Shown here in pieces: positions 1 through 50,300 of a stretch of 64,000 bases of DNA (the stretch's first letter is position 1; each line of letters opens with the position of its first letter). The position numbers and the translations under genes are program-made. The DNA comes from Branchiostoma floridae (taxonomy: Eukaryota > Chordata > Leptocardii > Amphioxiformes > Branchiostomatidae): contig NC_049980.1 of assembly GCF_000003815.2 (NCBI RefSeq), positions 8,047,558 through 8,111,557 on the forward strand. The letters are read 5' to 3'. The notes under the pieces were generated by a model, which was not told the DNA's origin, did no database searches, and saw only the letters and a program-made list of their open reading frames with translations.

Positions 1-1060
1 TGGCATATTGACTGAAAACACGGGATTTATTCTTTGCTGCCGTTGAATAAAAACAACGTAAAACAGCAGTTTGTTTCTGATAACCACATTGTAGTGATAA
101 TTATTATTGGATAGATGATTTCCATCATGAAGGTTTCCGTCATGTGCATAACGGCAAAATATATGCGAAATGAAGTTGAATCCACGTAGTTATTCTCTTG
201 TTCCAACGATGAGAAAGCGACAGCAGTTGATATGTTAAGCAATTTTTTCAGCAAAGTTAACACAGTGAAAGAGCTTTCACACATATTGTCTGGTCATTTC
301 TTATGTAACTTATAGACAGCTTTGGTAATGTTGCTATGATTAAACCTATCTGATCCATAGCTAACATGGGGCGTTTCTTAGCGCATGTGAAAAGCCCTGT
401 AACGTATACAGGCTTTAGAATACTTGTTAGATATGCAGCGCATTAAATGTCACTGTATGTAGAGACTCGTCCCAGACCATTCTTTGATGTCCACTAGATG
501 GCCACTTCGATGTCCAAATGAATCGATAAAAACCGTGCTTTCTTATGTTGGGGCGCGGCCACGTAGGTCCGAGTGCGATCGTCGAACGATTTTGATGCCA
601 TAGCAATTTCAAGCAGGCCGTGACAGAACCAAATACCGACATGGATCCAAAACAGCACTTTGTGTAAAAGACAGTTGAACTTTGCAAGAGACATATTTTT
701 TATCCTCCAAAATGCCTGAAATTAGCACTCGGACGACGATCGCACGACCTATGCGACAGCGCCCTTACGGTAACTGCCCGCTGGATTTTGACTTCAACAG
801 TCGCAACTCTATATTTCATATCGTCCTTTGCCGCGCCGAGTAACCGTCTTGACCATTGTGCCGATTTCTAACGATGTCCAGACGTGATATTTTTTCATGT
901 CTCAGGACCCTTCACCTTTGACATATTGCTCATTCCTGTCACTGCATGTGTACTCGAAACAGTGAACGTGCCTATTCCAGATGCTGACTTGTGTTGTTGA
1001 AATGTCAGAATGAGCCATGTTTGGAAATGTGTCTTACCCTTTAGTCTTGGTAGGTGGCGC
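1..1060. other. Intergenic, left end of the GAL3ST array
   Basis: No supported gene. Bases about 950-1070 resemble about 18830-18930, which lies in the 3' flank of GAL3ST copy 3 (shared text around 'gagccatgtttggaaatg' and the following 'ggtgg-gctatta'). This suggests the left edge of the window is the 3' flank of a further array unit. The short ORFs here have no recognisable domain. Confidence 0.45.
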
Positions 1061-22561: not shown

Positions 22562-23057
22562 TGGGGCCGCGTAGCACAGTGGTAGTGTATTCGGCCCGTG
22601 ACCGAGAGGTCGCCGGTTCGAATCCGCTTGCGGTGTTGCCGGTCTTGTGCCCTTGGGAAAGGCACTTTACACGACTTTCCTCACTTTACTCAAGTGAAAA
22701 ATGAGTCGTCCCTCGGATAGGACGTTAAATGGAGGTCCCGTGTATGGGGAGAGCCATACCCTATGCACGTTAAAGAACCCCCACACGTGCGATGGTGCGG
22801 TGTGCGTTAGTGCAAATCCTTCTGTCGGAAGTTGGTGATTCACTAAAAATCACCCGGATGGAGGCCTGGCGACCTCTGTCTCGTATCAGCCACACATGGT
22901 GATCTACATCATTCACCCGGACGGGTGTGTCACCCCGTAAGGGGCGGTATAACCCGTCGTTGTGCGAACATGTGCGAACATGTATATAGGGCTCCCTTGG
23001 AAATCAGTTACTACGTTAACTGAAGGGACTACCCTAAAGATCAATAAATAAATAAAG
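22562..23057 (+). mobile_element. tRNA-derived SINE 1
   Basis: The head has a Pol III A box (TAGCACAGTGG, 22572-22582) and a perfect B box (GGTTCGAATCC, 22615-22625). A conserved body follows ('ggataggacgttaaatggag', 'gcacgttaaagaaccc') and the end is a short A/T repeat ('atcaataaataaataaag'). The body resembles that of the element at 44718-44970, so the two have a common central domain behind different tRNA-like heads. No protein coded. Confidence 0.8.
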
Positions 23058-47300: not shown

Positions 47301-50300
47301 ACGCTACCAGAAAGGGTTGCAACCCCTAGGACACAACTTTCAGCTGTTCAGAGTTGTCAGCATTCATTGCCCTTGTTGAAAAAAGCTAGGGGAATTTCTC
47401 TGGTACAATAAACCTGTAAATACTGTATATTCTGTCTGTCTCCACTGTCACAACCAGTGGACACCTCTTTAGTGGGTTTGAGATCACTTTCACCTTTATT
47501 TCTTGCAGCTATGGCTCATGGACTTAATTGGTCTCATAAGTTACAAACACATATATGGTAACATTGAATGTAGCTCAGCTTTGTATGATCCTTTTATTGT
47601 CTGTGTATTTTCTTAACCAGCAAATGTTTACTCCATGTCCACAGTGTAACATGATCATAGTTGTTAACACTGACTAAACCTTCACTTCATCAGAATACTG
47701 TACTATTGCCATGGAGTGCTCTACAAGCAACTGTCAGCCTGGCTGCTGCATGGACTCCTGTTGGACAGATATAGTGAGTTCTTCATACACCAAGGAAAGG
47801 TGTGTACTGCGGCAAAACCTTCCTATTCATACATATGTCAATTGGGAAGGTAAAACTACTAAAATGCAGTGGAAAGAGAGCGATGGGCTCCGCCTTCTAA
47901 TACCATACCCTAGACACAGTGGAGAACAACCCACTACCCCTATGATCTCAATAAGGCTATGAGACTCAAAATACCCCCTTGCACACTTGTAAACGCCACC
48001 ACATTTAACTTCATTTTAAACCCAGGTACTGAGGTAGCAATAGTGCTACCTGAAATTTTGCAATTGGAACACCACTTTTCTCCCACCTACGTGCATAAGC
48101 TTTTATATTTATTTCTTGTGAAACAACCAGAGGGGCGAGTAAGAACAGAAAGAAACAACACCCCGACTCCCGGGATTCGAACCCGCGCCGAACCTGGGCA
48201 GCCGGATCACAAATCGAACGTGCAAACCGTTCGGCCAAAGGGCTTAAGCCGTTAGGCGTCTTCGGTTTAGCAGTCCTTGAACACCACTGTTACACTACTC
48301 CCCCTTTTCTTTTCAAGATTCGTCCTCGAATCTCCGAGATCGACATCCCTGTGTGGCACATACTAGCCTGTTAATCACAGGGTCGGCATGGGAACCAATG
48401 AAACAACCAGAGGGGCGAGTAAGAACAGAAAGAAACAACACCCCGACTCCCGGGATTCGAACCCGCGCCAAACCCGGGCAGCCGGATCACAAATCGAACG
48501 TGCAAACCGTTCGGCCATAAAGGCTTAAGCCGTTAGGCGTCTTCGGTTTAGCAGTCCTTGAACACCACTGTTACACTTGATTAAGATAAAACATATTAAG
48601 TAGTTACATGGGAAAGATAATGGATATTACATGTATAACCATTAACTTGGAAGTGGGGCAACCTTAAATGTTGATGGTGCAGCCTGAAAAAAGTATTTTG
48701 AGCACTGCATTTTTATCTCTGCACATTATGTTTCATTACACCTGAGCTTCAGGTTAGTTGTGCTTAACATGTTTTGTGTTGCTGATGCTGCAGGTGTTGG
48801 CAGATGCTGCCCGAGCAGGAAGCCAGGGTGATGATGATGACCTGGGGATCGGAGGGCTGTCAGGGAAGCAGCTGAGAGAACTCATGGTAGGCTTGATGTC
48901 TCTCTTTAGGTTGTCTTCCATCCTTGTTTTCCGAAATAGTTGATTTTATTGGGGTTGTAAGACAATACAATACTTGTGGGTTAGCAGAGGCTGACATTAC
49001 AAACATCAATACACAAGATTGTCCATAAAATTGAATAATAAACAAAGTTTAATGTGGGAACAATTCACTGCTGCAATGCAGAGAGATTTTTTTGACTTAA
49101 ATATCCTTGCTTGAACCAAAGACTGATTGATTCAAGTAAGTTATCCTTGATAGACTTCTAGTTCGCAGAATTTCTCTGCCTGTCATCCCCTACCACTATT
49201 CACAACAGCCTCTTGGAATTAAGAAGTTAAATTTGATTTATTGGATTGATGATTTGTACATTTAATAGCACATTGTTAGCAGATAAACAATCAGAAATCC
49301 AACAATTTTATCATTCTACCCATAAAAGTCTTGGGCAGTGTACATACCATACCTTTGCAAGTTGTATACTAGCTGGCATTTGTTGCAGATGGCCACCCAA
49401 CACCAAGTCCACTGTTTTGATTTTCTAAGGTGTGTTCTGACCATATGTAGCTCCCCCTGCTGGTTGGGGTTTGGTATTGCACTATGCTGCACAAGTTCTG
49501 ACCACGATTTACCCCTGAATATATACCATCTTGGAGTAATAAGATCTGGTGTGTGAACAATGGATAGGGTGGAAGGCTGATGTCCACAATGGATATGGGC
49601 AGTGCTAATGGTACAAAACACTGAAAGGCAACCTTGTATGTTTTACTAGTAACCTGCCATGCCAACAATATAGTTGTTATACCCTGTTGTGAAGTTGAGT
49701 TGGCCACCTGAGATGCCACGATGGATCCAGTTACAGCAGTTACTGACCTCTGGGAGTATCTGTTTCAAGTGGAGAAAAAAAAAGGAATGAATGGTGAAAA
49801 GGTGCTGCAATGTTAGGAACTTCCTGTGTCAACACCATTGATGCAGTAAGGTCATGGTCTTGGGCCAGTGCCCAGTACCACATCTTATAACATTCAACAC
49901 TTTCTTATCATTTGTATTATACCATCCTCTCATCTTAATCCCTAACTGTTGCTTGTAGAACTGGTACTTTATAGTCACCAAGGATTCAAATTCAATTAGC
50001 AACAGTTGTCTGAAGTTACCAGATATCTTAGGACTATTGAGGCATTGAATTGACCAGTCCTCAAAATGGCTTCCAACCAATTGGGAAAGGACCAAAGAAC
50101 CACGAGAACAGGTGTGTTTCTCCCAACAGTGGACTTCCGTTTCAGCAGTGGTCCACCCAGTGATGACAGGTGTTACAAAGAAGATGTCCAGGTTTCTGGT
50201 GCAAGCAGTGTTGATACCCCTTCCAGTGAGACAGGTGTAGCAAAGGAACCATGTTTGGAGTCCGTGCCAGAGCAGTCTACTGGAGAAATGGATCAGGGAA

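Follow-up and report, generated by a model that had tools for sequence, protein, structure and literature searches.

TRIMs with tRNA-like LTRs are known as 'Helenus' (TRIMp3), a name given by Kojima in 2024 (PMC10886601). The Helenus screen used elements under 1 kb, and animal Helenus are described as mobilised by Gypsy elements with the same primer; Pol III transcription of Helenus in general is unproven (PMC10886601). The chordates in Table 1 of that paper are fish and coelacanth, and lancelet is absent from both this table and the main text. As regards primers, retroviral plus strands reach the 5' end of the primer tRNA when it is unmodified, and the products are useless for transfer (PMC13191261).

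We analysed a 64,000-nucleotide stretch of Branchiostoma floridae DNA (the window), in which an element at 48119-48575 (minus strand) is organised as LTR-interior-LTR over 457 bp (177, 104 and 176 bases; Table 1). A sequence-only reading had described a TRIM-like architecture with LTRs, CTTG flanks, a primer site, a purine run and A and B boxes, all of which we confirm on the window sequence. Both LTRs start with TGTAACA and end with GTTTCA on the minus strand, and they differ from each other by three substitutions and one 1-base gap. The order on this strand is 5' LTR, one base, primer site, interior, a 17-base purine tract, TAG and 3' LTR, and CTTG forms a 4-bp duplication on either side. 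Each LTR contains the A box TGGCCGAACGG and the B box GGTTCGAATCC. The same reading had also proposed a tRNA counterpart of the plant TRIM Cassandra; the analogy is right, but such elements are already in print as Helenus (PMC10886601). Since the class is Helenus, whose main text mentions no lancelet, the window family is a new member, apparently of lancelet, of a class that is itself already known.

Table 1. Features of the window element (window coordinates)
Feature	Position	Strand
Target-site duplication CTTG, 5' side of element	48576..48579	none
5' LTR, 177 bp, haplotype B (TTTATGG, T106)	48399..48575	-
Palindrome GGCTTAAGCC, 5' LTR; TTTAT at the position where 34/67 f1 LTRs have TTTT	48522..48531	-
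A box, 5' LTR	48507..48517	-
B box, 5' LTR	48453..48463	-
Interior, 104 bp, non-coding	48295..48398	-
Primer-binding site; 14 nt pair with tRNA-Glu(CTC) 3' end, two G.U pairs	48384..48397	-
Possible pol 3'-end remnant (FEDES-stop if in frame); by-eye lead only	48313..48330	-
Polypurine tract, 17 nt, three bases before 3' LTR	48298..48314	-
3' LTR, 176 bp, haplotype C (CTTTGG, A101)	48119..48294	-
Palindrome GGCTTAAGCC, 3' LTR; CTTT comes next	48241..48250	-
A box, 3' LTR	48227..48237	-
B box, 3' LTR	48173..48183	-
Target-site duplication CTTG, 3' side of element	48115..48118	none

A string similar to the FEDES-stop candidate is found at the element end in one further locus (L020). There, positions 372-420 (+) hold the end of another Gypsy-like element, TTTGAGGACAAATGTT...GGGGGAGGTAG then TGTAACGG, in a layout resembling the end of the TRIM interior. 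Elsewhere in the window, GGTTCGANNCC occurs only at 22615, inside a SINE-like tRNA head. Both Rfam and ARAGORN call a tRNA at 22565-22636 (+), Thr-like with anticodon cgt, which seems to head a longer SINE-type repeat outside the TRIM family.

A search of the 513-Mb assembly with the LTR gave 1081 first-look candidates; the 40 that were scored are all at least 98% identical over the matched part and represent a biased, young sample. We examined 33 loci, the window and 32 further loci picked by similarity to the window LTR. Flush 4-bp duplications bound 23 of them (18 two-LTR elements, three three-LTR elements and two solo LTRs). The remaining ten comprise three truncated or deleted copies (L011, L018, L021), one with an assembly gap (L032), two with a tRNA (L019, L029) and four in which no duplication was seen (L017, L020, L030, L037); later inspection revealed CATT duplications in L029. 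Sampling C1 and C2 evenly, in 20 stretches of 10 kb each, we found one element (L056) in 190,590 bases, with TTCC on both sides as a 4-bp duplication. Adjacent LTR pairs are at most one substitution apart in 17 of 24 cases, and the other seven differ by 2, 3 or 22. The family is large, young and recently active. The LTR search proposed by the sequence-only reading was intended to recover full copies, solo LTRs and short target duplications, and all three were found.

The interior recurs as well. We aligned 30 interiors, 29 of which start with the primer site TGGTTCCCA, and the purine tract is kept in all 30, with small length changes in four. An ordinary tRNA-headed SINE, the window case being a chance tandem pair, had been named beforehand as the refuting case, and the A and B boxes and a tRNA-clan match in a sister LTR would suit it. 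However, single units with an A-rich or LINE-like tail and long duplications are not what the genome copies show. They have TG...CA ends, 4-bp duplications (also around the two solo LTRs) and, in aligned loci, a defined interior with primer-binding site and polypurine tract between the repeats, and no A-rich tail was found on family copies. That these elements are ordinary SINEs is thus extremely improbable, and because the genome copies share the same boundaries and 4-bp duplications, a chance arrangement of the window unit is excluded.

Different LTRs are often joined in one element. Five of the 33 loci combine f1 haplotypes, namely the window (B/C), L009 (C-B-C), L016 (A-B-A), L031 (D/B) and L036 (A-variant/B). 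L037 joins f1 and f2 LTRs, L013 and L014 differ in U5 end between their own two LTRs, and L056 is an f2/f1 element with an intact duplication. These mixtures can be explained by strand transfer between co-packaged molecules or by recombination at a later stage. We rejected LTR divergence as a measure of element age, because mixed elements combine different LTR haplotypes.

Neither ARAGORN nor Rfam at its gathering thresholds detects a tRNA in the window element. A match to the tRNA clan is found for the f2-type LTR of L037, with the tRNA-Sec model (25.7 bits, E=0.0027, below the gathering score of 47), and this LTR has a B-box half in common with the window LTR. Together with the A and B boxes in both window LTRs, this match supports the earlier proposal of a tRNA-like promoter sequence inside a TRIM LTR. 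The B box is unchanged in the 57 LTRs aligned, although conservation of the boxes among recent copies, all chosen by similarity, is weak evidence.

A second element of the LTR may bear on transcription. In all 84 LTR 5' parts compared (67 f1, 11 f2 and 6 f3), a ten-base near-palindrome occupies the same place, with the T run and A box immediately after it; its forms are GGCTTAAGCC, GCTCTTGAGC or GCTCTAGAGC, and GCACTAGTGC or GCACTAGTGT. In seven short representative rows of our own choosing, two of which are unpaired at the innermost position, 94.3% of cells are paired, and three of the five pairs change on both sides in a compensatory manner. Covariation in these rows is 0.571 versus 0.194 for shuffled data (0/500). 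TTTT follows the palindrome in 34/67 f1, 11/11 f2 and 6/6 f3 LTRs and is absent in 33/67 f1, counts that come from loci sampled by similarity to a non-TTTT LTR. Folding of the R-region RNA by itself is weak. By analogy with Cassandra, the palindrome and TTTT before the A box are likely to form a Pol III terminator that gives a short R region. Pol III would start in the LTR at a position that we assume from tRNA gene practice, and the predicted RNA would then end within the 3' LTR, about 10-17 bases beyond the start position. Three elements with two non-TTTT LTRs each (L012, L015, L039) nevertheless carry duplications, so the terminator cannot be essential, and since copies without TTTT also moved, read-through must be tolerated. 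We also considered the lack of a T4 run in the window unit as a sign of selection and rejected it, as P=0.0555 (one LTR plus interior) is not significant and P=0.0035 for the same absence counts the LTR twice.

The element could instead be driven by Pol II, as is usual for TRIMs, with the tRNA-like stretch a passenger. The A box of f2 LTRs, which deviates from the consensus, one f2 LTR of L069 with an altered B box, and the 33 f1 LTRs without TTTT would agree with this. Against it stand the constant B box (in recent copies picked by similarity), the palindrome-TTTT maintained at one place through compensatory changes, and the conservation of A and B boxes in Helenus (PMC10886601). We regard Pol II transcription as unlikely and favour transcription by Pol III.

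The primer could be identified from the primer site and from captured DNA. In its commonest form (23 of 30 interiors), the primer site can form 15 nt of pairing with tRNA-Glu(CTC), including one G.U pair; the window form (5 of 30) pairs over 14 nt, including two. In L019 and L029, the LTR is followed by C and then by the whole antisense tRNA-Glu (75/75 bases) with its CCA complement, and L026 has 68 antisense tRNA bases and resumes in the primer site at the common CCA. A genome search with the L029 junction, which did not require the CCA complement, yielded 41 matches, with 40 scored out of 290 candidates. Of these, 27 begin at the LTR end, three a few bases before the tRNA, eight are gene-like and start only past the CCA complement, two are gene-like and start at it with one mismatch, and one is a second LTR end. 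A pattern made up of CA, one base and the initial 18 bases of the tRNA matches the genome exactly at 47 places, compared to none for the reversed control; since the pattern requires the CCA complement, its presence in these rows is by construction.

We compiled 42 primer-junction loci from 39 of the 47 pattern matches and three mismatched loci from the L029-junction search, calling a TRIM U5 at an alignment score of at least 24 of 66. In 32 of the 42, a TRIM-type U5 and one base precede an antisense tRNA-Glu copy of 32-75 nt that contains the CCA complement; at least 64 nt are present in 25 of these and all 75 in seven. Eight loci without a TRIM U5 at this score have tRNA copies of 39-75 bases, and two (L081, L095) have 20 tRNA bases only. 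The LTR match begins at LTR base 1 in 19 of the 21 TRIM-type loci with the whole upstream side read (exceptions L063 and L073), as expected of plus-strand strong-stop DNA.

What follows the tRNA copy varies. A re-copied U5 end with a matching 4-bp duplication is seen in L029, L062 and L070, and without a matching duplication in L068. L064, L066 and L069 have 2-4 bases and then a second LTR start, resembling circle junctions. The copy continues inside an LTR in L061, L065 and L071, into the U5 end and interior in L078, into the interior in L026 and L084, into an inverted piece in L072 and into the flank in other loci. The inverted TRIM pieces after the tRNA copy in L072 and L100 are like self-integration products. 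In L019 and L076 the tRNA copy is followed by a filler (12 and 10 bases, respectively) with CA at its end and then by the left-flank repeat (TGATG and CTTG, respectively); the fillers may be another element's U5 ends, copied in trans. L079 (171-245, sense) contains a complete tRNA-Glu copy with CCA complement and CGTTTCA on both sides; a TRIM LTR was looked for at this locus and not found, and the copy is perhaps another retroelement's capture.

In our reading, the LTR-tRNA junctions are plus-strand strong-stop DNAs that extended through the primer and became integrated. Insertion of elements beside tRNA-Glu genes, rather than copying of a primer, has hardly any chance of being correct and is not consistent with our data. 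Gene-like matches do exist, several on C12, but eight of these ten begin only past the CCA complement and the other two start at it with a mismatch, and the gene L080 lacks the CCA complement. The 27 LTR-joined matches, in contrast, continue from the LTR end, the junction lies one base past this end at the position of the primer-binding site, and the tRNA copies end at many points before jumping into LTR or interior. It is also quite improbable that a sub-lineage with tRNA-Glu as its interior spread as such instead of arising by many separate captures. The similar length of 25 of the 32 copies (64-75 nt) would fit a sub-lineage, but in the 32 TRIM-type loci the copies end anywhere between 32 and 75 nt, and they also vary in LTR type, in the sequence after the tRNA and in the base that separates CA from TGG. 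Genome copies, 4-bp duplications, solo LTRs and the captured primer tRNA together bear out the suggestion of the sequence-only reading that the element is copied by LTR-retrotransposon machinery. We also asked whether primer capture gave rise to the LTR promoter and rejected this, because the promoter in the LTR has sense orientation and fits a long-variable-arm tRNA model, whereas the captured tRNA-Glu is antisense.

The element is best explained as a non-autonomous LTR retrotransposon of the Helenus type with a Pol III RNA, tRNA-Glu priming and a Gypsy-type helper (probability about 0.82). Pol III would start in the 5' LTR slightly upstream of the A box, transcribe the interior and stop at the palindrome-TTTT just before the 3'-LTR A box, giving an RNA of ~300 nt with a short repeat at both ends; in copies with a mutated TTTT, such as that in the window, the transcript would read on. 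To judge from the captured DNA, the 3' end of tRNA-Glu(CTC) primes the minus strand at a point one base beyond the LTR, and the plus strand extends into the primer tRNA from LTR base 1. It passed tRNA position 58 in dozens of loci, reaching or nearing the tRNA 5' end in many, and was resolved elsewhere in the element or in flanking DNA. Different LTR types in one element would reflect transfer between co-packaged molecules or later recombination. Reverse transcriptase and integrase would be provided by the helper, for which L081 and L095 are candidates. The two loci are 99.6% identical (positions 1-241 of each) and have an LTR end, a perfect 20-nt tRNA-Glu primer site and an unrelated, non-TRIM interior; the LTR end, AAATTCTACA, is similar to AATTTCTACA, a U5 variant present in some TRIM LTRs.

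Incomplete A58 methylation may be the cause of primer over-copying. m1A58 of tRNA-Glu varies between mouse tissues (PMC9943672); such data come from mouse, human and virus papers (PMC9943672, PMC13191261) rather than from this host. A broader proposal is that tRNA-Glu priming with incomplete A58 methylation leads to regular over-copying and has thereby seeded the genome with many CCA-ended tRNA-Glu copies, full or nearly full in length. This would amount to an LTR-primed dispersal of tRNA genes, and the proposal also includes the covarying palindrome-T4 as a Pol III terminator by which the R region is set. We put this forward tentatively, with the odds somewhat against it. In the literature searched, we found no survey of integrated primer-tRNA copies in retrotransposons, nor, in the parts available, a description of captured primer tRNA or the palindrome terminator.

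With this family, Helenus is extended to what appears to be lancelet. Its sequences also give direct evidence of the primer tRNA and of LTR-type copying, the captured tRNA in dozens of relatives revealing the copying route of family elements. With integrated strong-stop DNAs, genome sequence can test whether primer A58 methylation controls plus-strand arrest in retrotransposons; also testable is how a Pol III transcript obtains the terminal repeat required for strand transfer. Antisense tRNA copies may, in addition, confound tRNA gene counts.

Like Helenus, the element combines two LTRs, primer-binding site and polypurine tract at TRIM size, and its LTRs have tRNA-like sequence in the form of A and B boxes, with a tRNA-clan match below the gathering score in the L037 sister LTR. 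The 4-bp duplications of animal Helenus (here 23/33 loci and L056), several families per genome and tandem arrays, such as zebrafish LTR-11_DR, are further likenesses (PMC10886601), and a tRNA-Glu primer is shared with some bivalve Helenus families. The palindrome-TTTT before the A box and the captured primer tRNA distinguish our family from Helenus as described in that paper. PbTRIM of the harvester ant is likewise an animal TRIM with a tRNA 3'-end primer-binding site, a polypurine tract and 4-bp duplications, but its primer is tRNA-Leu and the available text mentions no Pol III promoter (PMC3532108). Cassandra also has a Pol III promoter in its LTR (predicted here), and its RNA starts in one LTR and ends in the other with an 18-bp terminal repeat (PMC10886601, PMC10853983); unlike its 5S rRNA-derived promoter, the window LTR gives no Rfam match to 5S rRNA. 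In retroviruses, the plus strand extends to the tRNA 5' end if the tRNA is unmodified and beyond A58 without the methylase (PMC13191261, PMC12220202), and a reverse-transcribed tRNA has been found between the LTRs of a cloned circle (PMC12220202, citing Colicelli and Goff). Those are laboratory cases with a full-length product unfit for transfer (PMC13191261, PMC12220202), whereas the lancelet genome contains dozens of integrated natural copies.
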